Source of the DNA: Nitrobacter winogradskyi
GTDB taxonomy: Bacteria > Pseudomonadota > Alphaproteobacteria > Rhizobiales > Xanthobacteraceae
Reading direction: 5' to 3'
DNA length: 64,000 bases
Assembly: GCF_006539545.1 (NCBI RefSeq)
Contig: NZ_BJNF01000029.1
Coordinates: forward strand, 62,001 to 126,000
Shown here one piece after another: positions 2,099 to 64,000 of the stretch. Position 1 is the stretch's first letter; each line of letters starts with the position of its first letter. The position numbers were made by a program, and so were the translations under genes. The notes under the pieces were generated by a model, which saw nothing but the letters and a program-made list of their open reading frames with translations, had not been told where the DNA came from and did no database searches.

Positions 2099-5000
2099 TC
2101 AAGCCGCCTTAGGTATGTCTTGCGGCGTGCCCTTCGGCAGCGCGTCGGCGGCCTTGCCGTCGCGAGGCAATCCGCGCCCCTTCGCGAGGCCGAAGATCGC
2201 CGGTATTACGATGAGGGTGAGGAGCGTGGATGAGGTCATCCCGCCGATCATCGGCACTGCGATGCGCTGCATGATCTCAGATCCATTGCCGGTGCTCCAC
2301 ATGATGGGCAGAAGACCCGCCATAATCGCAACTACCGTCATCACCTTGGGACGGACGCGGTCAACGGCGCCCACGATGATGGCCTCGTGGAGATCTCGCT
2401 TGGTGAGGACGCGGCCATCGCCGCTGCATTTAGCCTTCATCTCGGCTAGAGTATGGTCGAGATAGATCAGCATTACGACGCCGGTCTCGGCGGCGACACC
2501 CGCGAGCGCAATGAACCCGACCACGACGGCTACGGACAGGTTGAATCCGAGCCACCACATCATCCAGATTCCGCCGACCAGCGCAAAGGGCAGCGAGAGC
2601 ATGACGATCAAGGTCTCAGTCATGGCCCTGAAGTTTAGGTACAGCAGCAGGAAGATGATCGTGAGCGTTACGGGGACCACGATTTTCAAGCGAGCGGCAG
2701 CCCTCTGCAAATATTCGTACTGGCCGCTCCAGACCACGTAGTAGCCGGACGGGAACTGGATGGCCTCGGTGACGGCGCGCTGAGCGTCGGCGACGTAGCT
2801 GCCTAAATCCCGATCACGGATGTCGACGTAGATGTAGGTCGCGAGCTGCCCGTTCTCACTCCGGATGGACGTAGGTCCCCGCGTCGGCTCGACCTTGGCG
2901 ACTTCGCCCAACGGGACGGCACCGCCCGCCGGCATCGGCACCAGGATGTCGCTGGCGATGGCCTTTGGATTGTCCCTGAGATCGCGCGGATAGCGCATGT
3001 TTACCGTAAAGCGTTGCCGGCCCTCAACGGTCGTCGTGACCGTCTGGCCGCCGAGCGCGGCCGCAATGGTGTCCTGCACGTCCTGGACCAGAATCCCGTA
3101 GCGGGCGAGTGCCTCGCGGTCTGGCACGATCTCGAGATAGTACCCGCCGACCGCACGCTCCGCGTAGGCCGAGGACGTGCCGGGCACGGTTTTGATGGCG
3201 CTCTCGATTTGCTTGGCTAGGCGATCTATCTCGACCAGATCTGTGCCCATAACCTTGACGCCGACCGGCGTGCGAATGCCGGTCGAGAGCATGTCGATGC
3301 GGGCCTTGATCGGCATCGTCCAGGCATTCGAGACGCCGGGGAATTGCAACGCCCTGTCCATTTCCGCGACCAGGCTGTCGATGGTCACGCCGGGGCGCCA
3401 CTGCTCTTTTGGCTTCAGGTTGACCACGGTCTCGAACATCTCGATCGGCGCAGGGTCGGTTGCGGTCGCAGCCCGTCCCGCCTTGCCATAGACGGAGGCG
3501 ACCTCCGGGAACGCCTTGATGATCCGATCCTGCGTCTGCATCAGTTCGGCCGCCTTCGTGACAGAGATGCCGGGCAGCGTCGTCGGCATGTACAGCAGCG
3601 TGCCCTCGTTAAGCGTCGGCATGAATTCGGTGCCGAGCTGCCGCGCGGGCCAGATCGTTACGGCCAGTACCGCTACGGCGGCGAAGATCACCAGGATCTT
3701 CATTCGCAGCACGGCCTTGATCACGGGCCGGTAGATCCAGATCAGGAAACGGTTGATGAAATTCCTGTCCTCCGGGACGATTCTGCCTCGGACAAAGATC
3801 ACCATCAGCGCCGGCACCAGGGTGACTGACAGCAGGGCCGCAGCGGCCATGGCGAATGTCTTGGTGAACGCCAGCGGGCTGAATAGCCGCCCCTCCTGCG
3901 ATTCCAGCGCGAAGATCGGCATAAACGATACGGTGATGATGAGCAGGCTGAAGAACAGCGCGGGCCCGACCTCGGAGGCCGCATCGATCAGAATCTGCAC
4001 ACGCGACTGATCTGGTTTGGCTCGCTCGAGGTGCTTGTGCGCGTTCTCGATCATGACGATGGCGGCATCCACCATTGCGCCGATCGCGATCGCTATGCCG
4101 CCTAGGCTCATGATGTTGGACCCGAGCCCAAGCAGCTTCATGGCGCCGAACGCCATCAGGACGCCAACCGGCAGCATCAGGATCGCTACCAGCGCGCTGC
4201 GGACGTGCAGTAGGAAGACGATGCAGACAAGCCCGACGACGATGCTTTCTTCGAGCAGGGTGTGCTTGAGCGTGTCGATGGCCGCATAGATAAGGCTGGA
4301 TCGGTCGTAGACGGGCACGATTTCGACGGACTTGGGTAGACTGCTCGCGATTTCCTTGAACCGCTTCTTCACATTCTCAATCACATTGAGGGCATCGACC
4401 CCAAAACGCTGGAGCACGATCCCGCTTGCGACCTCTCCCTCGCCGTTCAGTTCGGCGATTCCGCGTCGCTCGTCCGGGCCCAATTCGACGTGGGCGACGT
4501 GCCGCAGCAGCACGGGCGTGCCGTTGGCGGTCTTCAGGACGATGTTGCCAAGATCGTTGATGCTTTTGACGTAGCCTTTGCCGCGGATGACGTACTCGAA
4601 CTCAGACAACTCCACCGTGCGCCCGCCTACGTCGGCGTTGCTGGCGCGGATGGCGTCGCGGATCTTTTGCAAGCTGATGCCGCGGTCCCGCATCCGCTGA
4701 GGATCGAGAACCACGTTGTACTGCTTAACGAAGCCCCCGATGCTGGCAACCTCGGCGACGCCTTCGGCCTTGGCCAGCGCGAACTTCAAATTCCAGTCCT
4801 GGATTGTACGGGTATCCGCCAAGTTCAATTCCTTGGATATGACGGCGTACTGGTATACCCAGCCAACGCCGGTCGCGTCGGGCCCGATCGTCGGTGTAAC
4901 GGCGGTCGGAAGTCTTGAGGCGGCGCCGTTCAGGAACTCCATAACGCGCGAGCGCGCCCAATAGATGTCGGTGCCGTCTTCGAAGATCACGTAGACGAAT

Positions 5001-5221
5001 GACACGCCGAAGAAGGAAAAGCCCCGCACCACCTTGGACTTCGGCACGGTCAGCATCGCAGTCGTCAGCGGGTACGTGACCTGGTCCTCTATGACCTGAG
5101 GCGCCTGCCCGGGATACTCGGTGTAGACGATGACCTGTGTGTCGGAGAGATCGGGGATCGCGTCTAGCCAAGATGCACATACGGCGTGCCTTCTCGCGCA
5201 GCAACGCCCGAGATGTCCCAT
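2099..5221 (-). pseudogene. CusA-type RND copper/silver pump, N-terminally truncated
   Basis: Heavy-metal efflux RND transporter of the monovalent (Cu/Ag) type. From residue 19 (LDAIPDLSD) to the end it closely matches the intact CusA at 22627-25824, including the TM4 region GAMVDAAIVMIENAHKHLE with its proton-relay Asp/Glu, and MLSTGIRTPVGVKV of the porter domain. The ~35 N-terminal residues that form TM1 (MIARLIAWSARN in the other copy) are replaced by an unrelated 18-residue lead-in (MGHLGRCCARRH). Without TM1 the pump should not assemble normally. The break abuts phaF/phaG relics, so a deletion or rearrangement removed the 5' end and any cusB partner. Confidence 0.85.
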
Positions 5222-22626: not shown

Positions 22627-25600
22627 TCACTGCACGTTCTCCGCACGATGCAGGTCGAACGTCGGCGTCAAATTCCGATGCTTGCCGTCTTTCTCTTCGC
22701 CGTCCCACGGCGAGGCGGGCAATCCAATTCCTTTTACCACCGCGAAGATCGCTGGAATGACAACGAGCGTCAGTACCGTCGACGAAACCATGCCGCCGAT
22801 CATCGGCACGGCAATTCGCTGCATGACCTCTGAGCCGGTCCCCGTACTCCAGAGAATCGGCACCAAGCCCGCCATGATCGCGACGACGGTCATCATCTTG
22901 GGTCGCACCCGGTCCACCGCGCCGAGCATGATCGCATTGTAAAGATCGGCTCGCGTGAATGGCTCTCCAGTGGCCGAGCGTTCCGCCTTCAATTCGGCCA
23001 TGGCCTGTTCGAGGTAGATCAGCATGACGACGCCGGTCTCGGCCGCGACGCCGGCCAGCGCGATGAAGCCGACGGCGACGGCGACCGACATGTTGAATCC
23101 GAGCCACCACATCAGCCAGATGCCGCCGACCAGCGAAAACGGCAGTGACAGCATCACGATCAGGGTTTCGGCCAGTGCCCGGAAATTCAGATAGAGCAGC
23201 AGGAAGATGATCAGCAAGGTGACCGGAACGACGATCTTGAGCCGCGCTTCGGCGCGCTGCAGGTACTCGAACTGTCCGCTCCAGGAGACGTAATAGCCCG
23301 GCGGAAACTTGACTTTCTCCGCGACCGCCTGCTGTGCTTCTGCGACGTACCCGCCCAGATCGCGACCGGTGATATCGACGAAGATGTAGACTGCGAGTTG
23401 ACCGTTCTCGGTGCGGATCGACGTGGGGCCGCGGGTCAATTTCACGCTGGCGACCTGGCCGAGCGGCACGCTCCCGCCGGACGCCAGCGGCACCTGGACG
23501 TCGGTGCTGATCGTTTGCGGGTTGGAACGCAACGCGCGGGGATACCGGATGTTGACGGAATAGCGTTCCCGGCCCTCGACCGTCGTGGTTACGGTTTCAC
23601 CGCCGAGTGCCATGGAGATCACGTCCTGGATATCGCTGATCGTGAGTCCGTAGCGGCCCAACGCCAAACGATCGGGGATGATCTCCAAATAGTATCCGCC
23701 AATCACGCGCTCCGCGTAGGCACTTGAGGTGCCGGGCACCGATCTAACCACCCGTTCGACTTCGCGGGCGATCTTCTCCATTTCCCCAAGGTCCTTGCCG
23801 AAAATCTTGATCCCGACGGGGGTACGTATTCCGGTCGACAGCATGTCGATGCGAGCGCGGATCGGCATCGTCCAGGCATTCGAAACGCCGGGAAACTGCA
23901 GTGCTTTGTCCATCTCGGCCTTGAGACTGTCAATCGTCACGCCGGGCCGCCATTCCGACTTCGGCTTCAAATTGATGATGGTCTCGAACATTTCGGTCGG
24001 CGCCGGATCGGTGGCGGTCGAGGCGCGGCCCGCCTTGCCATAGACCGATGCTACTTCGGGGAATGACTTGATGATGCGATCCTGAGTCTGCAACAGCTCC
24101 GCAGCCTTGGTGATGGACAGCCCGGGCAGCGTCGTCGGCATGTACATCAAAGTGCCTTCATTGAGGCTCGGCATGAACTCGCTGCCGAGTTGGCGGGCAG
24201 GCCAGATCGTGATCGCAAGTGCAATCAGTGCAAGCATGATCGTCAATGTCTTGGCGTTGAGAACCCACCGGATCACCGGTCGATACACCCAGATCAGGAA
24301 TCGGTTCACGGGATTCTTGTGTTCCGAGATGATGCGCCCGCGGACGAAGATGACCATCAGGGCAGGCACCAGCGTGATCGAGAGCAGGGCGGCCGCGGCC
24401 ATCGAAAAGGTCTTGGTGTAGGCGAGCGGCCCGAACATGCGTCCTTCCTGCGCCTCCAGGGTAAAGATCGGCAGGAACGAGACGGTGATTACCAACAAAC
24501 TGAAGAACAGCGACGGTCCGACCTCGCTCGCCGCATTGATCAAAATCTGCGTCCGCGGCGTTCCGGGCTTCGCGCGCTCCAGGTGCTTGTGCGCATTTTC
24601 GATCATGACGATCGCCGCGTCGATCATGGCACCGACCGCGATGGCGATGCCGCCAAGGCTCATGATGTTGGCGCCGAGCCCCATGAATTTCATGGCGGCG
24701 AAGGCCATTAGGATTCCTACGGGGAGCATCAGAATGGCGACGAGCGCACTGCGCAGGTGAAGCAGGAAGACAAAGCAAACCAAGGCAACGATGATGCTTT
24801 CTTCGAGCAGGGTGCCCTTGAGCGTTTCGATGGCCGCCTTGATCAGTTCGGAACGATCGTAGACCGAGATGATCTCGACGCCCTTGGGCAGGCTTGAGGC
24901 GATCTCCGTAAGACGCGCCTTGACGTTGTCGATGACGGTGAGGGCGTTGGCGCCGAAACGCTGCAGCGCGATGCCGCTGACGACCTCGCCGTCGCCGTTG
25001 AGTTCGGTAATTCCTCGCCGCTCGTCCGGACCGAGTTCGACGCGAGCAACGTCCCGCAATCGAAGCGGAGCTCCCGCGTCGGTCTTCAGAACGATGTTCT
25101 CGATGTCCTCGATGCTCCTGAGATAGCCGCGGCCGCGGACGATGAATTCAAACTCGGACAGCTCCACGGTGCGTCCACCGACGTCCGTGTTGCTCGCCCG
25201 CACGGCACTGCGGAGCTTGCCCAGTGAGATGCCTTGGGCGCGCAGTTTTTGCGGGTCGACGACGATGTTGTACTGCTTGACGAAGCCGCCGACGCTAGCC
25301 ACTTCCGCGACGCCTCCGGCTTTGGAAATGCCGTACCGCACAATCCAGTCCTGCACCGACCGGAGTTCGGCAAGGGTCATGTCCTTGGCCACGACGGCGT
25401 ACTGATAGACCCACCCGACACCAGTGGCATCGGGCCCAAGGCTTGGCGTGACCCCCGTGGGCAATCGTCGCGCGGCGGTGTTGAGATATTCCAGCACGCG
25501 GCTTCGCGCCCAGTAGGGATCCGTGCCGTCTTCGAAGATGACGTAGACGAAGGACACGCCGAAGAACGAGAAGCCGCGCACGACCTTCGATTTCGGAACC

Positions 25601-25824
25601 GTCAGCATCGCCGTGGTCAACGGATAGGTCACCTGATCCTCGACGACCTGGGGCGCCTGCCCGGGATATTCGGTGTAGACGATGACCTGCACGTCGGAGA
25701 GATCGGGGATGGCGTCGAGCGGCAGGGTGCGCAATGCATAGATGCCCGCCGTGACCGCGAACACCGTCCCGATCAGGACCAACATCAGATTCCGCGCCGA
25801 CCATGCGATCAGGCGGGCGATCAT
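22627..25824 (-). CDS. cusA: CusA-type RND copper/silver efflux pump
   Basis: 1065 residues, full length. Proton-driven inner-membrane RND pump of the heavy-metal monovalent branch. TM1 begins MIARLIAWSARNLMLV; LPLDAIPDLSDVQVIVYTEY follows. TM4 carries GAMIDAAIVMIENAHKHLE with the proton-relay acidic residues, lacking the DFGxxxDG pattern of divalent (CzcA) pumps. The porter domain contains ARIDMLSTGIRTPVGIK, with Met residues like those of E. coli CusA. A short extension follows the last helix. The start codon overlaps the cusB stop by ATGA. A near-identical but truncated paralogue lies at 2099. Confidence 0.93.
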   Translation of the reverse strand: MIARLIAWSARNLMLVLIGTVFAVTAGIYALRTLPLDAIPDLSDVQVIVYTEYPGQAPQVVEDQVTYPLTTAMLTVPKSKVVRGFSFFGVSFVYVIFEDGTDPYWARSRVLEYLNTAARRLPTGVTPSLGPDATGVGWVYQYAVVAKDMTLAELRSVQDWIVRYGISKAGGVAEVASVGGFVKQYNIVVDPQKLRAQGISLGKLRSAVRASNTDVGGRTVELSEFEFIVRGRGYLRSIEDIENIVLKTDAGAPLRLRDVARVELGPDERRGITELNGDGEVVSGIALQRFGANALTVIDNVKARLTEIASSLPKGVEIISVYDRSELIKAAIETLKGTLLEESIIVALVCFVFLLHLRSALVAILMLPVGILMAFAAMKFMGLGANIMSLGGIAIAVGAMIDAAIVMIENAHKHLERAKPGTPRTQILINAASEVGPSLFFSLLVITVSFLPIFTLEAQEGRMFGPLAYTKTFSMAAAALLSITLVPALMVIFVRGRIISEHKNPVNRFLIWVYRPVIRWVLNAKTLTIMLALIALAITIWPARQLGSEFMPSLNEGTLMYMPTTLPGLSITKAAELLQTQDRIIKSFPEVASVYGKAGRASTATDPAPTEMFETIINLKPKSEWRPGVTIDSLKAEMDKALQFPGVSNAWTMPIRARIDMLSTGIRTPVGIKIFGKDLGEMEKIAREVERVVRSVPGTSSAYAERVIGGYYLEIIPDRLALGRYGLTISDIQDVISMALGGETVTTTVEGRERYSVNIRYPRALRSNPQTISTDVQVPLASGGSVPLGQVASVKLTRGPTSIRTENGQLAVYIFVDITGRDLGGYVAEAQQAVAEKVKFPPGYYVSWSGQFEYLQRAEARLKIVVPVTLLIIFLLLYLNFRALAETLIVMLSLPFSLVGGIWLMWWLGFNMSVAVAVGFIALAGVAAETGVVMLIYLEQAMAELKAERSATGEPFTRADLYNAIMLGAVDRVRPKMMTVVAIMAGLVPILWSTGTGSEVMQRIAVPMIGGMVSSTVLTLVVIPAIFAVVKGIGLPASPWDGEEKDGKHRNLTPTFDLHRAENVQ

Positions 25825-33417: not shown

Positions 33418-34215
33418 TCAGGCTACTGATTTGACCATGAGCCGGGTATGTTGCTCCTCGAACTGCGCCGGGCTGAGATAGCCGAGCGCGGAATGCAGGC
33501 GACGCTGATTGTAGACGTCGTCGATGAACCTGGGCAATTGTTCAGCGACATTATCGAATGTCTCGAACGCCATCGGATAGACCGCCTCGACCTTGAGTGT
33601 CTTCATGAAGCTCTCCGCCTTGGCGTTATCGTATGGATTGCCGCGCCGGCTCATCGAGCCAACCATGCCGTGGCCGGCAAGCAATGCGCGATAGATCCCG
33701 GACGCGTATTGCGAGCCACGATCCGAATGATGAACGCATCCTGGTCGCGGGCACCGTCGCTCGATCGCCACCTTCAGTGCCGCAACCGCGAGCCGCGCGT
33801 CGATCGATCTACCGATCGCATAGCCGACGACGCGGCGCGACCAGGCGTCGAGGATGATCGCGACATAAGCAAAGCCGCCGATGATGGCGATGTAGGTCAG
33901 GTCCGCTACCCAGAGCTGGTCGGGGCCAGCGAGGATCATATCCTTCGAACGATCCGGGAAGATGGGCTGATCATGGTCGCTGTCCGTGGTGGCGATATAG
34001 CGCCTGCGGCATCGTGGCTGAAGATCGTGCTCGCGCATCAGGCGCTTGATCCGCTTGTGGTTGGCAACCACGCCTTGATGACGGAGCGCCGCGCGCACGC
34101 GGCGCCAGCCATAGGCTTCGAACTCATCGCAGATCGCGGTGATCGCGCTCAACAACTCGGCATCGCCAGTGCGCGCCGCAGGCACATCGTAGTAGGTCGA
34201 TCGCGTGATGCCCAT
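33418..34215 (-). CDS. IS3-family transposase OrfB, DDE integrase
   Basis: 265 residues. HTH_21 region ([14 protein letters not shown]) then an rve integrase core with the DDE triad: D in [20 protein letters not shown] in [13 protein letters not shown] in [17 protein letters not shown]. Ends [15 protein letters not shown]. Normally made as an OrfAB fusion by programmed frameshift from orfA. Appears intact, so the element may still be mobile. Confidence 0.9.
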
Positions 34216-34565
34216 CAGCCGGCATCCTTCAGCGACGGACAGGCCGCGGGGCCGGTGATCACGGATGTAGTCGCGCTTCTCGGCCGGGGTGCGTTTTTCA
34301 GAGCCCCCTTTAAAAACTCCAGTTCGAGGGCCTGCCGGCCGACCAACCGCTCAAGCGCGGCGATGCGCGCTTCATACTCCTGGACCAGATCCGCCGCACC
34401 CGCGTCACCGTCCAGCGCGCCCGCCTCATACTTGTCGACCCAGATGCGGATCAGGTTACGCGAAAGGTCGTGGCGCTTGGCCAGCCCGTGAAGCGTCTCG
34501 CCGCCAAGAAACTCCTGGGCGACCTGACGCTTGAACTCGACGCTGTGGGATCGGTGTCTCGGCAT
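34215..34565 (-). CDS. IS3-family transposase OrfA, DNA-binding subunit
   Basis: 116 residues. N-terminal helix-turn-helix of the transposase_8 family ([20 protein letters not shown], then [12 protein letters not shown]), followed by a leucine-zipper-like helix ([20 protein letters not shown]). It recognises the terminal inverted repeats. Its end overlaps orfB in another frame, the usual arrangement for -1 frameshifting. Confidence 0.88.
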
Positions 34566-53063: not shown

Positions 53064-53312
53064 ATGGCCGCTGAATTGCTTTATCGGATCGATGCTGATC
53101 GCAACATGGCAACCTTCTATAAGCTCGATGTAGAGCCTACGTTGTTTGGTGAATGGGCTTTCGTCGGAGAGAGAGGTCGCATTGGCCGTGCTGACACGTT
53201 CGCAGCACACTATGATACTGTCGCCGCCGGTCAGGTTGCGCGTTCCAAGCAAATCCAACTCAAAGAGCATCGGGGCTACTCTGCTGCGTGGCGCAGTGTC
53301 GTCTCATCTTGA
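53064..53312 (+). CDS. WGR-domain protein, short
   Basis: 82 residues. LYRIDADRNMATFYKLDVEP, TLFGEWAFVGERGRIGRADT and QIQLKEHRGY match the WGR domain (NMxRFY ... LFGxWxLxRxWGRIG ... KxRRGY), though the central WGR reads ERGRIG, with Trp lost. Stand-alone WGR proteins are frequent on rhizobial plasmids; function unknown. The last codons overlap the czcA end on the other strand, so the original C-terminus may be altered. Confidence 0.6.
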   Translation: MAAELLYRIDADRNMATFYKLDVEPTLFGEWAFVGERGRIGRADTFAAHYDTVAAGQVARSKQIQLKEHRGYSAAWRSVVSS

Positions 53313-56300
53313 GCAGCGTCCGTCTGATTGCTTTGGCCGAATCGCGCGAACAGTGCTGGCAGTACAAACAATGTCAGCAGAGTCGCGCTAATCAGCCCGC
53401 CGATCACGACCGTGGCGATCGGACGCTGGACCTCGGCGCCCGTGCCCGTTGCCAACGCCATCGGCACGAAGCCCAGCGATGCGACCAGTGCCGTCATGCT
53501 TACCGGACGCAAACGGGTTAAGGCACCCTCGCTTATCGCTTCAAGCTTCCCGTAGCCCCGTGCCATCAGTTGTTTGATGTAAGTAAGCATGACCAGACCG
53601 TTTAGAACGGCGATGCCGGATAAGGCGATAAAACCCACTGCCGCCGAGATCGAAAACGGCAAGCCGCGCAGCCAGAGCGCCAAAACGCCGCCTGTCAGCG
53701 CCAGCGGCACGGCGCTGAATACCAGCAACGCATCGCGCGCCGAGCCCAGGGCGCCCATGAGCAGAAGAAAAATCAGCACGAAGCATGCCGGCACCACCAG
53801 TAAGAGCCTCTGCCGCGCCGCGATCAGGTTTTCAAATTGTCCGCCCCAGGTCATCCAGTAGCCGGCCGGTAGCTTCACCTGCGCTTCAATTTTCGCCTGC
53901 GCCTCGTTTACGACAGAGGCGATATCCCGGTCGCGCATATTGGCGGTTACGACGATCCGTCGCTTGCCGTTCTCGCGGCTGATCATATTTGGACCTTCAC
54001 CCAGACTCAAGGCTGCCAGTTCACCGAGTGGTACTGTTGAGGCAGCATTCCCGGCGCCGGGCAGCGCAACCGGCAGAGCGCGGATCGCGTCTAAGTCATT
54101 GCGTTTGGACTCCGCCAAGCGCACCACTATTTCAAAGTAGCGGTCTCCGTGGAATACCACGCCGGCATCCCGGCCGCCTATCGCCGTGCCGATGACATCC
54201 TGCACGGCCGCCAGGTTCAAGCCGCGGCGAGCGATAGCTGCCTTATCCACGCTGATCTCGAGAACCGAAAGGCCGCCCGCCTGCTCGACTTTGACGTCAG
54301 CTGCCCCTTTCGTGCTGCGCAGGATCTCCGCGACCTGGTTGGCCGCGCGCAACAACGGCTCGAACTCTTCGCCGAAAACTTTAACGGCTATATCGCCTCT
54401 GACGCCGGCCAGCAGCTCGTTGAAGCGCATCTGGATCGGCTGGGTGAATTCATAATTGTTGCCGGGCAGTTCACGCGCTTTGGCTTCGATTTGCTCGAGC
54501 AGCTCGGCCTTGGACAAGTTCGCGTCGGGCCACTGCGAGCGCGGCTTGAGAATGACGAACGTATCGGATTGGTTGGGGGGCATCGGGTCGGACGCAATTT
54601 CGGCCGTGCCGGTCTTCGAGAACACCAGGGCCACCTCGGGCAGGACGCCGATCTTCCGCTCAAGTTCGAGCTGCATCGCCTGCGCCTGCCCAAGGCTTGC
54701 GCTGGGAATGCGAATGGCCGTCAGGAGGACGTTTTTTTCGTCCAGCGTGGGGATGAACTCCTGGCCCAAGCGCAAAAACAGAAAGATGGCGGCGACAGAC
54801 AAGGCGAGCGCGCCGGCAAGCGATGGGAGGGGTCGCCTAAGGACGCTGGCCAGTGCGGGCCGGTAGACGGCCTTTAATCGCCGCATAGCGACGTTGTCGC
54901 CTTCGCTCACGCGTCCTGTAATGCATATCGCAAGCAAAGCCGGGACGAAGGTCAGCGAGAGCACGAAAGCCGCCATAAGCGCCAGAATGACGGTCAGCGC
55001 CATCGGCTCGAACATCTTGGCCTCCATCCCGCTGAAGGTCAGGAGCGGCACGTAAACCAAGATGATGATGGCCTGGCCGTAGACGCTGGGCCCGATCATC
55101 TCCTCAGCGGCTTCCTGTACGGCTTGCAGCCGGTCCGCAATAGTAAGGCCTCGTCCGGCGGCATGCTGCTTTTCAGCCAAATGCCGTAAGGTGTTTTCCG
55201 TGATAATCACTGCACCATCAACGATAAGTCCGAAATCGAGCGCGCCGAGGCTCATCAGGTTGGCGCTCACGCGTGCCTGGAGCATACCCGCCGCGGTCAT
55301 CAGCATTGTCAGCGGGATCACCAGCGCCGTGATGAAAGCCGCGCGGAAATTGCCGAGCATGGCAAACAGCACCATGATCACCAGCAGGGCGCCTTCTCCG
55401 AGGTTAGTGGCGACGGTTTCTACCGTCTCCTCAACCAGCTGGGTCCGATCGAGGACGGTCTGTATCTGAATGCCGGGCGGCAAAGTCCGACGAACCAAGT
55501 TCATCCGGGCATCGACTGCCTTGGCAACGATGCGGCTGTTGCTGCCGATCAGCATCAATGCCGTGCCGACCACTACTTCACGGCCGTTTTCGCTGGCGCT
55601 GCCGGTCCTGATCTCCCCTCCGACTGCTACTTGCGCGACGTCGCGGATATAAATCGGCACGCCTCCACGCGTGCTGACCACCACTGCGCCGATATCAGAA
55701 AGGCTTTCGAGCCGGCCGCCTGTCCGGACCACAATGCCCTCGCCGTTCCGCTCAATCACGCTGGCGCCACGGCTGGCATTGTTGGCCTCGAGCGCCTTGC
55801 CCACTTCGGCGAAGGACAGCCCGAAAGCGATGAGTTTCATTGGGTCGGGCTGGACTTGATACTGCTTGACATATCCTCCAATGGAATCGACGCCGGCGAC
55901 GCCCGGCACGCTCTTGATCTGCGGCTTTACGATCCAATCCTGGACCGTGCGCAAGTAGGCGGAGCGCTCTAGCTCGCTTGTGAGTTGGGCGCCTTCCGGC
56001 GTGAAATAGGGGCTTTCTTTCAGCGCCTCGGCTGTGAACATTACGGACCACATGTAGATTTCGCCGAGGCCTGTGGCTACTGGCCCCATTTTGGGATCGA
56101 CGCCAGGCGGCAGCCGAGGCCGTAGCTCGAGCAGCCTTTCATTCACCTGCTGGCGCGCGAAGTAGATATCGGTTTTTTCCGAGAAAACCGCAGTAACCTG
56201 GGAAAAGCCATTGCGCGAGATCGAGCGGGTGTTCTCAAGGCCTGGAATCCCGGCAAGAGCGGTTTCGATCCGGAAGGTCACCTGCTTTTCTATTTCCGCC

Positions 56301-56485
56301 GGCGACAACGCCAGGGCCGTCGTATTGACCTGCACCTGGTTATTGGTGATGTCCGGCACGGCATCGATCGGCAGGCTCGCCATCGACCAGACACCCAGCG
56401 CGATGATGGCAAAGCCCGCCAAAACGACCAGCCAACGCTTCCGGATGGAGAAGGCGAGAACGCGGCTAATCACGTTCGCTCTCAA
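53276..56485 (-). CDS. czcA: CzcA-type RND divalent-metal efflux pump
   Basis: 1069 residues, full length. Begins VISRVLAFSIRKRWLVVLAG; DAVPDITNNQVQVNTTALAL follows, typical of the divalent heavy-metal RND group. TM4 shows LDFGLIVDGAVIITENTLRH: the DFGxxxDGxxxxxEN pattern of CzcA (Zn/Co/Cd), unlike CusA. QEFIPTLDEKNVLLTAIRIP is in the periplasmic domain. It exports Zn, Cd or Co with CzcB. The ATG overlaps the czcB stop by four bases. No outer-membrane factor is encoded in this operon. Intact. Confidence 0.92.
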   Translation of the reverse strand: MRANVISRVLAFSIRKRWLVVLAGFAIIALGVWSMASLPIDAVPDITNNQVQVNTTALALSPAEIEKQVTFRIETALAGIPGLENTRSISRNGFSQVTAVFSEKTDIYFARQQVNERLLELRPRLPPGVDPKMGPVATGLGEIYMWSVMFTAEALKESPYFTPEGAQLTSELERSAYLRTVQDWIVKPQIKSVPGVAGVDSIGGYVKQYQVQPDPMKLIAFGLSFAEVGKALEANNASRGASVIERNGEGIVVRTGGRLESLSDIGAVVVSTRGGVPIYIRDVAQVAVGGEIRTGSASENGREVVVGTALMLIGSNSRIVAKAVDARMNLVRRTLPPGIQIQTVLDRTQLVEETVETVATNLGEGALLVIMVLFAMLGNFRAAFITALVIPLTMLMTAAGMLQARVSANLMSLGALDFGLIVDGAVIITENTLRHLAEKQHAAGRGLTIADRLQAVQEAAEEMIGPSVYGQAIIILVYVPLLTFSGMEAKMFEPMALTVILALMAAFVLSLTFVPALLAICITGRVSEGDNVAMRRLKAVYRPALASVLRRPLPSLAGALALSVAAIFLFLRLGQEFIPTLDEKNVLLTAIRIPSASLGQAQAMQLELERKIGVLPEVALVFSKTGTAEIASDPMPPNQSDTFVILKPRSQWPDANLSKAELLEQIEAKARELPGNNYEFTQPIQMRFNELLAGVRGDIAVKVFGEEFEPLLRAANQVAEILRSTKGAADVKVEQAGGLSVLEISVDKAAIARRGLNLAAVQDVIGTAIGGRDAGVVFHGDRYFEIVVRLAESKRNDLDAIRALPVALPGAGNAASTVPLGELAALSLGEGPNMISRENGKRRIVVTANMRDRDIASVVNEAQAKIEAQVKLPAGYWMTWGGQFENLIAARQRLLLVVPACFVLIFLLLMGALGSARDALLVFSAVPLALTGGVLALWLRGLPFSISAAVGFIALSGIAVLNGLVMLTYIKQLMARGYGKLEAISEGALTRLRPVSMTALVASLGFVPMALATGTGAEVQRPIATVVIGGLISATLLTLFVLPALFARFGQSNQTDAAQDETTLRHAAE

Positions 56486-59500: not shown

Positions 59501-60097
59501 ATGCCGGACCTAAAGAACATCGAGTCGATCTATCTGGTTCTCGGTTTCGTCGTGCCGGGGATGATCGTCGCCTATGTCCGCGCCCAATTCTTGACCGGCC
59601 GCATCCGAACGTTGAGCGAGAACGTTCTCGCCTACATAGTGCTGACGGTCCTCTATTACGGCGTCGCCGCCCCGTTCGTGGAGTTTGTCCTCACATTCCG
59701 CGAGCCCGGCCGCCCGAAGATCTTCGCATGGCTCGGACTGATCATCGTCCTGCCGGCGTTCGTCGGTCTGGTTCTTGGAATTCTCGGACAGAACGAGTTC
59801 TTCCGAAGATTCCTGCAGTTGTGCAGGACCAACCCCATTCACGCCACGCCATCCGCCTGGGACTACACGTTCGCCAAGATCCGAGGCGACCAATTCATCA
59901 TGGTCATTCTTTCGGACGGCGCGACCGTCTCCGGCATCTTCGGCAGTCAGTCGTTTGCATCTTCGGACCCGGCTGAACGCGATCTGCTCATCCAGGAGGT
60001 CTACGACGAGGAATGCGGCTCCTGGACGAAGCGTACCGAACAAACCGCCATCCTCATTCCCGCGAAAGAGATCAAGCACGTCCAGATCTGGACATAA
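59501..60097 (+). CDS. DUF6338-family membrane protein
   Basis: 198 residues. The N-terminal half has about three membrane helices (ESIYLVLGFVVPGMIVAYVR; VLAYIVLTVLYYGVAAPFVE; LGLIIVLPAFVGLVLGIL). The cytoplasmic C-terminal half includes AWDYTFAKIRGDQFIMVILS, DGATVSGIFGSQSFASSDP and QTAILIPAKEIKHVQIW, an SH3-like barrel pattern. This is DUF6338, whose function is unknown. It is 12 nt upstream of the small proline-rich gene and heads the caspase-helicase locus, so it may be a membrane component of that system (inference). Start at 59501 has only a weak ribosome site. Confidence 0.75.
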   Translation: MPDLKNIESIYLVLGFVVPGMIVAYVRAQFLTGRIRTLSENVLAYIVLTVLYYGVAAPFVEFVLTFREPGRPKIFAWLGLIIVLPAFVGLVLGILGQNEFFRRFLQLCRTNPIHATPSAWDYTFAKIRGDQFIMVILSDGATVSGIFGSQSFASSDPAERDLLIQEVYDEECGSWTKRTEQTAILIPAKEIKHVQIWT

Positions 60098-60109
60098 AAG
60101 GAGTCCGAC

Positions 60110-60292
60110 ATGACCCGCACCAACGATGGATACAAGCCGCCTACTCCTCCCAACATCAGCAACAAGGGCTATCAGCCCTCGTCGATCCATCAGCCGCTCA
60201 AGCCGCAAGGCGGGCACCAGCCGACTGGCGGCTCAAGCCCCAAGGTGCCGACGACCGGAAGCGGCGTGAAGCCGCCGCCTTCGAAACCGTGA
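60110..60292 (+). CDS. Small proline-rich disordered protein
   Basis: 60 residues with an excellent AAGGAG before the ATG. Rich in Pro, Gly, Ser, Lys and Gln (PPTPPNISNKGYQPSS; GGHQPTGGSSPKVPT), ending KPPPSKP; no hydrophobic or catalytic element. Most likely intrinsically disordered. Its tight spacing to the DUF6338 gene and strong ribosome site argue that it is real. It could be a partner or adaptor of the neighbouring proteins; no family is recognised. Confidence 0.65.
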   Translation: MTRTNDGYKPPTPPNISNKGYQPSSIHQPLKPQGGHQPTGGSSPKVPTTGSGVKPPPSKP

Positions 60293-60390
60293 TCGGTCCA
60301 AGAATTCCCGCTGCCTATGAGTGATGGCGCAGCGGGCGCCAGTCCGAGGCCTCGCAGAAAGCTTGCTTATCGAATTTCAGGGACGAGAAC

Positions 60391-63300
60391 ATGTCTTTCC
60401 GAGGATTGTTCGTTGGCATCGACCGCTATGAATCGCCGACGATCAGCGATCTGAGTTGTGCGCGGCGCGATGCCACCACGCTGGACGCGCTGTTCGCCGA
60501 TACACTCGGCGGGGCGTCCCGGCTGTTGACGGAAGACCAAGCCACGCGAGCGAACATCGAAGCTGAGTTCGCTGCCTTGGCCGGCTGCGATCCCGAGGAC
60601 ACGGTGGTGATCGGCTTTTCCGGGCACGGTTCCGAAACCCACGAACTCATCCCGTTCGACGCCGACCCCGCGAACCTCGGCACGACGGCGATCCCGCTCG
60701 ATCTGCTTCAGGATTGTTTCACGCGGATTCCCGCAAAGCGGCTGGTGTTCTTTCTCGACTGCTGTTTTTCCGGCGGGTTGGGCTCGAAGGTGCTGCAGAC
60801 GGAGGTCAAGCCGCGTGATCTGAGGTCGGCCGAGGCGAAGTTGGAAAGCATTGCCGGCAACGGCCGGCTGATCTTCACGGCATCGCGCGCCGACCAACCG
60901 GCTTTCGAGAACACCAAGCAGGGACACGGCTTCCTCACATTGTATCTGATCGAGGCACTGAGGGGCGCCGAGGAAGTCGTCCAGGCGGCGCGTATTCCGA
61001 TATACCGCCTGCTCGAACACGTCTCCGCGCGCGTAGCGTCGGCGGCAGCGCAGTTCGGACTGCAGCAGCACCCGACGATGAAGGGCAACATCGATGGCGA
61101 TCTGCATTGGCCGGTCTTCATTGAAGGTCCCCGCTTCGCCGCTGCCTTTCCGGATCGCCGCAATGTGACGGTGACGAGCGAATTGGGAAGCCTGGCGGCC
61201 GCAGGTTTTCCCGAGCAACTGATCGCTTCCTGGGCGACCGCCATCCCGTCGCTCAATTCGCTGCAGGTTACGGCGATCAACGAGTATGGCATTCTGAAAG
61301 GCGATCATCTTGTCGTCTCCGCTCCCACGTCGAGCGGAAAGACCATGGTCGGCGAGCTTGCAGCACTCCGCACCGTGCTTGATCGCCGGCGCGCGATCTT
61401 CCTGTTGCCGCTGAAAGCTCTCGTTGCGGACAAGCGGAGACATTTCAACGCCGTCTACGGTCCATTCGGGATCCGGACCATCGAAGCGACAGGAGAGACG
61501 GACGACATTTCGCCAATCCTGCGGGGCAAATACGATATCGCTCTTCTGACCTACGAAAAATTTGCGGCGATTGCCCTCACCTTCCCGCACGTGCTCGCCG
61601 GCGCCGGCGTGATCGTCGTCGACGAAGCCCAGATGATCGCGGACAAGGGTCGAGGCGCCAACCTCGAATTTCTGCTGACCCTGATCCGAATGCGTCGGCG
61701 CGAAGGCATAGAGCCTCAGACGATCGCGCTGTCCGCCGTCATTGGCGACACCAATGGCCTCGAAAGCTGGCTCGGTGGCCGATTACTTAGGCAGACCGAA
61801 CGACCGGTTCCTCTCGACGAAGGCGTCCTGCGGGGAGACGGCACGTTCCGTTTTATCGATTCCACCAACGGTCAGGAGAAGATCGAGGGCCCGATCATTC
61901 GTCAGGAATACCGCAAAGGATCGAGCCAGGATTGGGTCGTACCGTTGGTTAGACATCTGGTCGGCCAAGGCCAGCAGGTCATCGTCTTCAGGGAAGTGAA
62001 GGGAGAAGCGCGAGGCACGGCGGGATATCTAGCCGAGTCAATCGGGCTTCCTCCTGCCCGCACCGCCATGGATCGGCTGCCGATTGCCGACGCGTCTTTG
62101 GCAAATCAGGATCTCCGCAAAGCCATGGCGGGAGGCGTGGCTTTTCACCACGCCGACCTCACGCCGGAGGAACGCCGGGTCGTCGAGGAGGAGTTTCGCC
62201 GTCCTAATTCAGGCCTCCGCGTGATCGCGGCGACAACGACGCTCGCGATGGGTGTGAACACGCCTGCCTCGTCCGTCGTGATCGTCGGACTTATGCACCC
62301 TGTTGACCAGCCATATTCGGTTGCCGAATACAAGAACCTCGTCGGACGTGCAGGTCGCCTGGGATTTTCGGAAAAAGGATCTTCCTACATTTTGGCCACG
62401 GACGGTCATGCCGAATACGGGTATTGGAGCAACTACGTCACCAAGACTCCGGAAGACCTCGCCTCCAGGTTTCTGGACGACACCACGGATGCGAGGTCCC
62501 TCATCGTGCGGGTCGTGACCTCCTTAAGCAGGCTGAATCCGAAAGGGGTCGGCAGCGAAGCCATCGTCGAGTTTCTGGAGGCCAGCTTCGGAGCATTCCA
62601 GGCCGCAAGGACGCGTTCCGGCTGGAATTGGGACAGGAACGATCTGCTCACGGCCCTTCAGGATCTTGAGCGCAATGGGCTGCTCTTGCAGGCAGAAGGC
62701 CTTTATACTCTCACGGATCTGGGTCGCTTGGCCGGCGAGAGCGCCACTGAAGTCACATCGATCGTCCGCCTGGTCGAATGTTTGCGGAAGATACCGGCCA
62801 ACCAATTGACCGATCCGAATCTCATCGCGGCGACTCAGATCACCTCCGAACTGGACGACTTGGGTTTTCCGATCAACAAGAAGTCGACTCAGAAAGAGCC
62901 CCAGGCCTGGATCGGCGAACTTCGGCCCCAAGTTTCCGGCGCGGTGCTCAATGCTTTCCAGAGAGAACTCATCGACAATCACACCGCAACAATCCGCGCG
63001 AAGAAATCCGTTTCGTGCCTGATGTTCGTCTCCGGCCGCCCTATGTCCAAGATCGAAAAGATTATCGGGCAATTCGGTGGTGCGTTCGGCGGCGCATCCG
63101 GACCGATCAGAAGCGTCGCAAATCGCACGTCGGACCTGGTGACGACCACCGCAAAGGTGGCGCAGATACTTCATCCGGATCTTGATCTGGGCGATCGGGT
63201 CGGCAAGCTGGTGCTGCGCCTGACCCACGGCATTCCGGGTGCCGCGACCGATCTCGCGCGGGAGTGCGGATCCGAACTTCTCCGCGGGGAATACTGCGCG

Positions 63301-63486
63301 CTTGTGAATGCGAACGTGTGCGAGGCCGAGGCCATCGAGGCGGCCTCGGACGCAGCTATTCTCGACTGCGTGGGCGGCAACAGAGAGAAATTGTCGGCGA
63401 TACGTGACGCGGCCGCTGCGATGAAGCGTCGAAAGCAGGCGATGATGATCCTCGCTGCGCCGATCCTCGAACCCTACGTCGCATGA
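60391..63486 (+). CDS. Caspase-like protease fused to a Ski2-type helicase
   Basis: 1031 residues. N-terminal peptidase C14 caspase domain (~1-245): GLFVGIDRYESPTI, His in VIGFSGHGSETHE (H79) and Cys in FFLDCCFSGGLG (C125), the catalytic dyad. Then an SF2 helicase: Walker A APTSSGKT (311-318), DEAQ box (VVDEAQMI, 411), SAVIGD, TTTLAMGVNTPAS and motif VI YKNLVGRAGRLGF, as in Ski2/Hel308-like proteins. A helical region with a winged-helix-like part (~700-790) and a C-terminal domain complete it. Possibly the helicase senses foreign or aberrant nucleic acid and triggers proteolysis (inference). Intact. Confidence 0.9.
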   Translation: MSFRGLFVGIDRYESPTISDLSCARRDATTLDALFADTLGGASRLLTEDQATRANIEAEFAALAGCDPEDTVVIGFSGHGSETHELIPFDADPANLGTTAIPLDLLQDCFTRIPAKRLVFFLDCCFSGGLGSKVLQTEVKPRDLRSAEAKLESIAGNGRLIFTASRADQPAFENTKQGHGFLTLYLIEALRGAEEVVQAARIPIYRLLEHVSARVASAAAQFGLQQHPTMKGNIDGDLHWPVFIEGPRFAAAFPDRRNVTVTSELGSLAAAGFPEQLIASWATAIPSLNSLQVTAINEYGILKGDHLVVSAPTSSGKTMVGELAALRTVLDRRRAIFLLPLKALVADKRRHFNAVYGPFGIRTIEATGETDDISPILRGKYDIALLTYEKFAAIALTFPHVLAGAGVIVVDEAQMIADKGRGANLEFLLTLIRMRRREGIEPQTIALSAVIGDTNGLESWLGGRLLRQTERPVPLDEGVLRGDGTFRFIDSTNGQEKIEGPIIRQEYRKGSSQDWVVPLVRHLVGQGQQVIVFREVKGEARGTAGYLAESIGLPPARTAMDRLPIADASLANQDLRKAMAGGVAFHHADLTPEERRVVEEEFRRPNSGLRVIAATTTLAMGVNTPASSVVIVGLMHPVDQPYSVAEYKNLVGRAGRLGFSEKGSSYILATDGHAEYGYWSNYVTKTPEDLASRFLDDTTDARSLIVRVVTSLSRLNPKGVGSEAIVEFLEASFGAFQAARTRSGWNWDRNDLLTALQDLERNGLLLQAEGLYTLTDLGRLAGESATEVTSIVRLVECLRKIPANQLTDPNLIAATQITSELDDLGFPINKKSTQKEPQAWIGELRPQVSGAVLNAFQRELIDNHTATIRAKKSVSCLMFVSGRPMSKIEKIIGQFGGAFGGASGPIRSVANRTSDLVTTTAKVAQILHPDLDLGDRVGKLVLRLTHGIPGAATDLARECGSELLRGEYCALVNANVCEAEAIEAASDAAILDCVGGNREKLSAIRDAAAAMKRRKQAMMILAAPILEPYVA

Positions 63487-63499
63487 TCGGAGGTCCAGC

Positions 63500-64000
63500 G
63501 TGCCCAAGAATATCGTGATCTTCTCGGACGGGACCGGCCAGGACGGCGGCGCCCGTCCGGAGCAGCGCATTTCCAACATCTACAAGATGTACCGGATTTC
63601 GCGCGACCACGCCGAGAGCGGACCTCGCCGGTTCGTATCGTCCAGAAGCTCATGGGATCCGTCACCGGTGCGGGCATAAAGCGCAACATCGCGGACTGCT
63701 ACGAATTCATCATCAACCATTATGAGGAAGGCGACAGGATATTTCTGTTCGGGTTCAGCCGAGGTGCCTACACGGTCCGCAGTCTCGCCAATCTGCTGAT
63801 GCTCTGCGGCGTACCGACAAAGATGCCGGACGGGCCTTTGCACCGATACCGCAAGGCAGTTAAAGACATCGCATGGGAGGCCGTGGACACCGTCCTTGAA
63901 CACGGCGCAGGCCATCCGCGGGAAGACTTCGAGGGTGAGCGCCTAGAGCTCGCCCGCCGTTTCCAGACCAAATACGGCTCTGGCGACGGGACTGACGCCA
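63500..64000 (+). pseudogene. DUF2235 alpha/beta hydrolase, frameshifted and cut by the window end
   Basis: GTG start with GGAGG 6 nt upstream. Frame 1: VPKNIVIFSDGTGQDGGARP and RISNIYKMYRISRDHAES, then a stop at 63678. The second frame picks up IVQKLMGSVTGAGIKRNIAD and DRIFLFGFSRGAYTVRSLAN, with the nucleophile elbow GFSRGAY, to the window edge. Normally ~40 residues (a YDPGVGT-type segment) lie between, so a deletion with frameshift is likely. DUF2235 includes Tle1 phospholipases of type VI secretion. Only 13 nt after the caspase-helicase gene. Confidence 0.75.

Follow-up and report, generated by a model that had tools for sequence, protein, structure and literature searches.

Four genes on the plus strand close the 64,000-nucleotide stretch of Nitrobacter winogradskyi DNA analysed here (the window; contig NZ_BJNF01000029.1, hereafter C29, positions 62001-126000, in a genome of 3.96 Mb and 172 contigs), and the question they raise is whether they work together as one defence system. 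The run starts at 59501 and encodes, in this order, a DUF6338 membrane protein, a proline-rich peptide, a caspase-helicase fusion and a DUF2235 protein, with the first three genes intact. It had been predicted from the sequence to be a four-gene defence locus, and the defence setting is well supported, with a Shango system adjoining the run and defence genes near many homologues. However, the four do not form a single, fixed system, because DUF6338 and the peptide are absent from most loci of the fusion and mostly occur without it, and because DUF2235 is broken in this genome. The fusion is the fixed part of the locus, and both of its flanks are exchangeable. No named system with such a make-up was met in defence-profile or literature searches, as the original prediction had supposed.

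The caspase-helicase fusion and its exchangeable flanks

The third gene (60391-63486, plus strand) encodes a protein of 1031 residues, which was assigned from Pfam, NCBIfam and its relatives in the PDB. Peptidase_C14 (PF00656) covers residues 6-232 (E 6.7e-15; 55.8 bits, cut-off 21.4), and the Pfam helicase domains DEAD (E 8.9e-21) and Helicase_C lie at residues 291-452 and 581-658. The NCBIfam profile for Hel308 (PRK02362/NF002654) is matched over most of its length by residues 283-995 (E 1.3e-71), with a score of 242 bits where 887 are needed for the Hel308 equivalog. Judged from its sequence, the motor is a relative of Hel308 and not an orthologue; the predicted fusion of a caspase to a helicase therefore stood, with a motor of Hel308 type rather than the Ski2-like one proposed. 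The nearest solved structures to the motor are those of Hel308 (2zj2, 3.7e-82), far ahead of the Hachiman protein HamB (8vx9, 1.1e-30). A Foldseek search with an AlphaFold2 model of the fusion agreed with this, its best match being Hel308 (2va8); the model is only fair (predicted local distance difference test, pLDDT, 67.0; predicted template modelling score, pTM, 0.36), and domain contacts were not derived from it. Residues H79, C125, K317, D411, E412, Q414, R653 and R656 were unchanged in 18 of 18 aligned homologues, which came from Alphaproteobacteria and Bacteroidota and were 36-82% identical to the window protein. These residues make up the predicted catalytic pair (His79 codon, 60625-60627; Cys125 codon, in the motif DCCFSG, 60763-60765) together with Walker A, DExQ and motif VI. 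The ratio of nonsynonymous to synonymous substitution rates (dN/dS) of the fusion was 0.07-0.10, with saturated dS. Domains with helicase activity were noted in 12 of 671 putative bacterial metacaspases in the available part of a 2012 paper (PMC3501461).

A scan of one genome per species returned 36 loci. The 23 loci L004-L026 hold homologues of the fusion (L024 is truncated where its contig ends); the remaining 13 match part of the helicase only. A lack of recurrent co-occurrence, which would have refuted the original prediction, was not observed. The same four-gene order was found in three genomes including that of the window, the others being Bradyrhizobium viridifuturi (L004) and Bradyrhizobium sp. 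Rc3b (L020), whereas neither DUF6338 nor a peptide like that of the window was found in the other 21 of the 23 homologue loci. A chance assembly of the four genes was rejected on the identical order in L004 and L020 and on the extent of the nucleotide similarity to L004 given below.

The exchange of partners is seen directly at one site. L004 and L005 share the gene nrdJ, a 162-bp leader and the fusion. In L004, DUF6338 and the peptide sit between leader and fusion, and DUF2235 lies 3' of the fusion; in L005 the pair is missing, and the 3' side carries two TIR genes, a caspase gene, a gene for a 92-residue protein and a metallophosphoesterase gene. Since the two loci keep leader and fusion and differ on either side, it is the fusion that stays constant, and the genes to either side of it can be exchanged. 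Within the stretches compared, nucleotide similarity between the window contig and L004 was confined to the segment from 59494 (7 bp before DUF6338) to the inside of DUF2235. Other genes take the upstream place elsewhere; genes were called throughout by a simple rule of length and GC position rather than by a gene finder, on which the counts of neighbours and orientations depend. Genes for proteins of 74-78 residues, forming one cluster, lie directly 5' of the fusion at 11 of the 23 loci and at L044 on a plasmid, which makes 12 in all; a thirteenth was recognized by eye in L014, and the one in L007 is a DUF2158 gene. An upstream gene of 203-239 residues, as called, ends within 8 bp of the start of the fusion in L015, L022 and the plasmid loci L041 and L042. 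Genes of 285 and about 192 residues and a UvrD-type helicase gene also recur with distant caspase-helicases (L044:12072-16901 and L007:1-7060), and may belong to a larger system.

The caspase-helicase is rare and patchy in its distribution. It was found in 1 of 385 genomes sampled from the class and 10 of 248 from the family, the window's own being counted in both, and in none of the eight other genomes listed for the genus. Among 145 matching plasmid records, 12 relatives reached at least 80% query coverage, and a pattern scan of viral contigs gave one relative. Ten homologues of about 66% identity and like surroundings have a tyrosine integrase next to them (by Pfam in L007), their hosts including Bradyrhizobium, Sphingomonas and Xanthobacter, and such an integrase is the nearest gene in L007, L015 and L023. 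An island of the same build (integrase, caspase-helicase and a 78-residue DUF2158-type gene, with a UvrD-type helicase visible in 9 of 10) is seen in L006-L012, L016, L017 and L019; its wide host range was read as recent wide transfer.

The working DUF2235 hydrolase that had been predicted at the 3' end of the run was not recovered. Its frame from 63500 closes after 59 codons (63500-63679; positions 1-40 of the PF09994 profile, E 3.8e-5, under the cut-off), and the remainder lies in a different frame of the same strand from 63652 to 64000 (PF09994 positions 70-133, E 2.1e-22), continuing beyond the window to contig position 126611. Compared with the intact gene in L004, the window copy lacks about 70 bp internally and is frameshifted, and its homology extends to about position 64553 in window numbering, which is beyond the window end, so that about the last third is lost. 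The gene is intact in L004 (540 residues; PF09994 9.1e-63) and L020 (530 residues), and more distant DUF2235 genes lie some kilobases off in L014 and L018. Because the dN/dS of the remaining part against its relatives is still low (0.07-0.08, with saturated dS), the decay of DUF2235 in this genome was probably recent. Given this decay, either the core works without DUF2235 or the locus is failing.

Defence setting and a proposed mechanism

Directly beyond the broken DUF2235 gene, on the opposite strand and convergent with it, lies a Shango system identified by profile matches to SngC (6.7e-249), SngB (7.5e-176) and SngA (9.2e-83) (L040:6591-12521, minus strand, just past the window on C29). 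Genes for defence or abortive infection were found within about 6.5 kb of at least 10 of 19 non-redundant homologues, the window included. TIR and caspase genes adjoin L005, L022, L041 and L042, together with a ThsA-like SIR2 gene in L022 and Mokosh genes (MkoA, MkoB) in L042. Neighbours seen at single loci were an LmuB-like gene (L013), a Fic candidate (L015), an AbiE antitoxin (L018), HamB (L021) and type I restriction (L023). When the nearest gene of at least 200 residues was taken, with partner genes excluded, it matched PADLOC in 4 of 15 scanned loci (the 19 without L005, L042, L043 and L045) and in 0 of 18 beside recA, a weak control, from which two of the 20 recA loci were left out as lying close to contig ends and which was by eye dominated by the neighbour alaS. 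A defence-type locus is well supported by this context, and context and architecture together point to a defence role.

Two arrangements were observed beside these loci. The set of TIR, TIR and caspase genes recurs (L005:13115-16705, and also L022, L041 and L042) with a 92-residue protein and a metallophosphoesterase added in three of the four loci, and resembles type IV Thoeris with two extra genes. In L021:13117-17065, the caspase-helicase is followed at once by a gene of 263 residues and then by a HamB-type helicase gene; the 263-residue product looks HamA-like by eye, yet no profile matched it.

We propose, with about equal weight for and against, that the fusion is the helicase-triggered caspase core of a mobile anti-phage immune system of the abortive-infection type whose membrane and effector modules are exchangeable. 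The Hel308-type motor would load onto abnormal or replicating invader DNA, which would act as the trigger, and its ATP-driven movement or clustering on the DNA would switch the attached caspase on. The activated caspase would then cut its target and the cell would stop, either directly or through a downstream effector. The exchangeable upstream partner would be DUF6338 with its peptide, a DUF2158 protein or the 203-239-residue protein, and the exchangeable downstream effector set would be the DUF2235 membrane hydrolase or the TIR-TIR-caspase genes, with DUF2235 serving as effector or substrate. There is precedent in the available text of one report (PMC12799240), by which Hachiman, AVAST and caspase-nuclease (canu) systems use proteases to switch on a partner nuclease.

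Several observations count against this proposal. Because DUF2235 is broken in the window, the four genes cannot all be required in this genome, and broken frames occur in 2 of the 23 fusion homologues (L025 and L026). Six plasmid relatives of DUF2235 were opened, five of them annotated; one shows dsr1 and one RES-Xre toxin-antitoxin genes, and a caspase was found within 4.5 kb in none of the five. The scan around the 19 homologues covered chosen neighbours rather than all of them and was partly made before the nearest-gene rule was fixed, and under that rule 11 of the 15 loci gave no PADLOC match. The neighbour nrdJ in L004 and L005 is a housekeeping gene. Finally, no solved chain was similar by sequence to the caspase part.

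The DUF6338-peptide pair and competing explanations

The two upstream genes were borne out as predicted. The DUF6338 gene (59501-60097, plus strand; 198 residues) matches PF19865 with E 9e-34 and 117.3 bits against a cut-off of 26.5. The open reading frame for the 60-residue peptide (60110-60292, plus strand) was assigned by its position 3' of DUF6338, and its ATG is preceded by a Shine-Dalgarno-like AAAGGAG (60097-60103, plus strand) that is kept in L004 and L020. Its dN/dS of 0.04-0.12 among the window, L004 and L020, for a short gene with saturated dS, indicates that the peptide is under purifying selection. Of 397 genomes sampled from the order, 4 hold a DUF6338 protein that scores above the family cut-off, as do 18 of 398 from the phylum; these numbers count the genome of the window. 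DUF6338 was also found in 8 plasmid records and 39 viral-contig loci, and no match to it was found in a collection of phage records; the plasmid collection searched with the peptide alone gave no match.

A short proline-rich reading frame follows DUF6338 in most loci (L127-L165, L063-L066, L068 and L073-L089), in one to three tandem copies. For counting, a peptide was required to hold at least 12% proline and at least one GYxP-type motif, and 68 loci were reduced to 50 non-redundant ones and, with L154 dropped at a contig end, to 49. Such a peptide was encoded downstream in 30 of 49 loci, upstream in 0 of 49 and on the opposite strand in 2 of 49 (Fisher 2.6e-12 and 6.9e-10). Under a looser, noisier rule of at least 12% proline only, the numbers were 38 downstream, 7 upstream and 9 on the opposite strand. 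Some of the 19 misses carry a peptide that escaped the rule because it is poor in proline, starts early or has a different motif (e.g. L150, L071, L093, L090 and L091), and the remaining ones have no peptide by the rule. Among 52 distinct peptides, 42 hold two or more GYxP-type motifs and 41 a PPxK-type tail, counts which are not independent of the selection of these peptides for at least one motif.

In the literature found, DUF6338 appears only in a report on Pseudomonas stutzeri, whose available text describes a predicted operon with three proline-rich small proteins that were detected by mass spectrometry and were called possible new genes not conserved beyond the species (PMC10433244). The GYxP peptides that follow DUF6338 in most loci speak against such confinement to P. 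stutzeri, the comparison with that paper being by description and not by sequence alignment. The pair also stands 5' of genes for defence. In Proteus, a plasmid carries it upstream of TIR and caspase genes and next to genes for Tn7-like transposition; one of 5,426 Escherichia coli genomes matched this Proteus locus, over 5% of the query and in the caspase part only. In L092:4645-12850, DUF6338 and the peptide lie directly 5' of the BREX genes pglX and brxC. DUF6338 with two peptides was also seen adjoining a DUF4062 gene on an Acinetobacter plasmid (L065:4995-6952), and DUF4062 is called an antiphage NADase in the abstract of a preprint (PMC13174449).

DUF6338 and the peptide are thus a portable pair in their own right, and the window may simply hold two unrelated neighbours that do not act jointly, namely a mobile-element cassette of DUF6338 and peptide (a 'moron', perhaps for phage exclusion or of toxin-antitoxin type) and a separate caspase-helicase defence gene. 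We regard this as a possibility of some substance, if a doubtful one. Viral contigs, plasmids and chromosomes carry the pair in the absence of the fusion. L005 keeps leader and caspase-helicase without the pair, which is missing from 21 of the 23 caspase-helicase loci. Genes on the opposite strand flank the pair on both sides in 15 of 23 viral loci (24 were chosen of the 39, of which 23 have genes on both sides), which is the layout of a self-contained cargo cassette. The neighbours at viral loci, 77 of the 142 listed being scanned, include up to seven matches to an integrase family, six to DNA polymerase and five to DNA helicase. On the other hand, in each of the three cassettes that have DUF2235 immediately downstream, the pair lies just 5' of the fusion in the same orientation, and the place of the pair 5' of TIR-caspase in Proteus and of BREX in L092 hints at a recurring position heading defence operons.

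What DUF6338 itself might do was approached through its AlphaFold2 model (mean pLDDT 79.5), which has long N-terminal helices at residues 7-32, 38-64 and 71-97 and a C-terminal barrel like that of Sm and LSm proteins at about residues 115-198. The top structural match of the barrel was the SmAP protein 1i8f (Z 9.1 over 71 residues, 2.3 Å, where the best chance Z of the tool is 7-8), and the best Foldseek E was 7.7e-3. Among the 50 structural matches shown, 49 were titled Sm, LSm, SmAP, Hfq or small nuclear ribonucleoprotein (snRNP)/spliceosome and one was a hypothetical protein. On this model, DUF6338 is fairly likely to be a membrane-anchored Sm-like domain. An MscS-like channel, to which the likeness is one of layout only, was set aside. 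With hhalign, nothing was found between DUF6338 and small alignments of 9 Hfq and 10 MscS-type sequences, and MscS is absent from the 50 matches, which by itself proves nothing. Barrels of Sm type usually assemble into rings, and it is conceivable, though unlikely, that DUF6338 is the effector of killing or exclusion in its own right, as a ring-shaped membrane pore or a membrane-bound Sm ring gated by the peptide. The three long helices with the Sm-like domain in the model and the placing in viral contigs would suit such a role; the missing profile similarity to the small MscS and Hfq alignments speaks against it. More broadly, we put forward tentatively a joint reading of two features not described before. 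A caspase-armed Hel308 would be the constant core of a modular immune locus in which the membrane module upstream and the effector module downstream are swapped at a fixed site, and DUF6338 with its GYxP peptide would be a two-gene module widespread in prophages, plasmids and defence loci. In this module DUF6338 would form a membrane-anchored ring of Sm type, and the disordered peptide, of a sort earlier taken for a new gene limited to one species, would bind to the cytosolic face of the ring or gate it.

It is improbable that the caspase-helicase is an enzyme of DNA repair or plasmid maintenance rather than of defence. Relatives of Hel308 act at stalled forks, the gene adjoins nrdJ in two loci, and 12 plasmids carry copies of near full length; its rarity, patchiness, linkage to integrases and repeated defence neighbours, however, speak against a repair role, and none of the repair helicases known to us is fused to a caspase. 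Least probable of all is that the caspase would cut the proline-rich peptide or be inhibited by it, an analogy being the proteolytically activated partners in canu and in Craspase, and this candidate was set aside: the peptide gene is conserved and lies between the DUF6338 and caspase genes, but it tracks DUF6338 and not the fusion, being present after DUF6338 where no fusion is found, and the 21 fusion loci that lack DUF6338 gave no peptide either. Activation of partner proteins by proteases in other systems, as described in the text available (PMC12799240), is the further point in favour of this candidate.

The stretch 1-58888 of the window appears by eye to be a long metal-resistance region with cation efflux and MerR genes, RND-type pumps at 2099-5221, 22627-25824 and 53276-56485, and an IS3-type transposase at 33418-34565.

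Relation to known systems and meaning

The fusion resembles Hel308/Hjm and the helicase part of DNA polymerase theta over most of the Hel308 length, and is unlike Hel308 in its N-terminal caspase, its score far under the equivalog cut-off and its rare, bacterial, mobile settings. With Hachiman it shares a superfamily-2 motor that comes with an effector, HamB being its best PADLOC match (1.7e-34). However, its motor is nearer to Hel308, its protease is fused, and no separate HamA was found among the four genes of the window with Pfam or PADLOC. Type IV Thoeris consists of TIR and caspase; a caspase is present here too, and TIR-caspase sets adjoin four fusion homologues, but no TIR was found among the four genes with Pfam or PADLOC. 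Canu and a protease-nuclease form of Hachiman, in the text available, likewise use a bacterial caspase to trigger defence and exchange protease-effector pairs between systems (PMC12799240); unlike in canu, caspase and motor here form one protein, and Pfam found no metallo-beta-lactamase (MBL)-fold nuclease domain, the canu partner, among the four genes.

DUF2235 is listed among lipid-acting toxins as a toxin-type alpha/beta hydrolase in the accessible part of a paper (PMC3482391), and the PF09994 domain, intact in the L004 and L020 copies, places these proteins with the Tle1-like hydrolases. They differ from these in possible membrane helices in mid-protein, seen by eye, and in the window copy being broken into two frames. 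No type VI secretion gene was noticed beside DUF2235, though no search was aimed at such genes. The P. stutzeri operon is alike in joining DUF6338 to short proline-rich proteins and unlike in that its proteins are called species-limited in the available text (PMC10433244), while the GYxP pattern is shared across most loci examined here.

No description of a caspase-helicase defence system was found by name or by combined terms in the literature covered, which left out most subscription papers. Caspase-based bacterial immunity is a known kind, and the DUF6338-peptide pair is the part of the locus furthest from anything described. If the proposed mechanism is true, one protein joins a DNA motor directly to a caspase, where sensing and executing elsewhere need two or more proteins. 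Through the DUF6338-peptide pair, micropeptides reported as orphans would become members of a conserved kind that has a fixed partner. The Sm fold is known for RNA-binding rings; a domain like it that sits on the membrane of bacteria and belongs to mobile elements, as the model suggests, would be unexpected.

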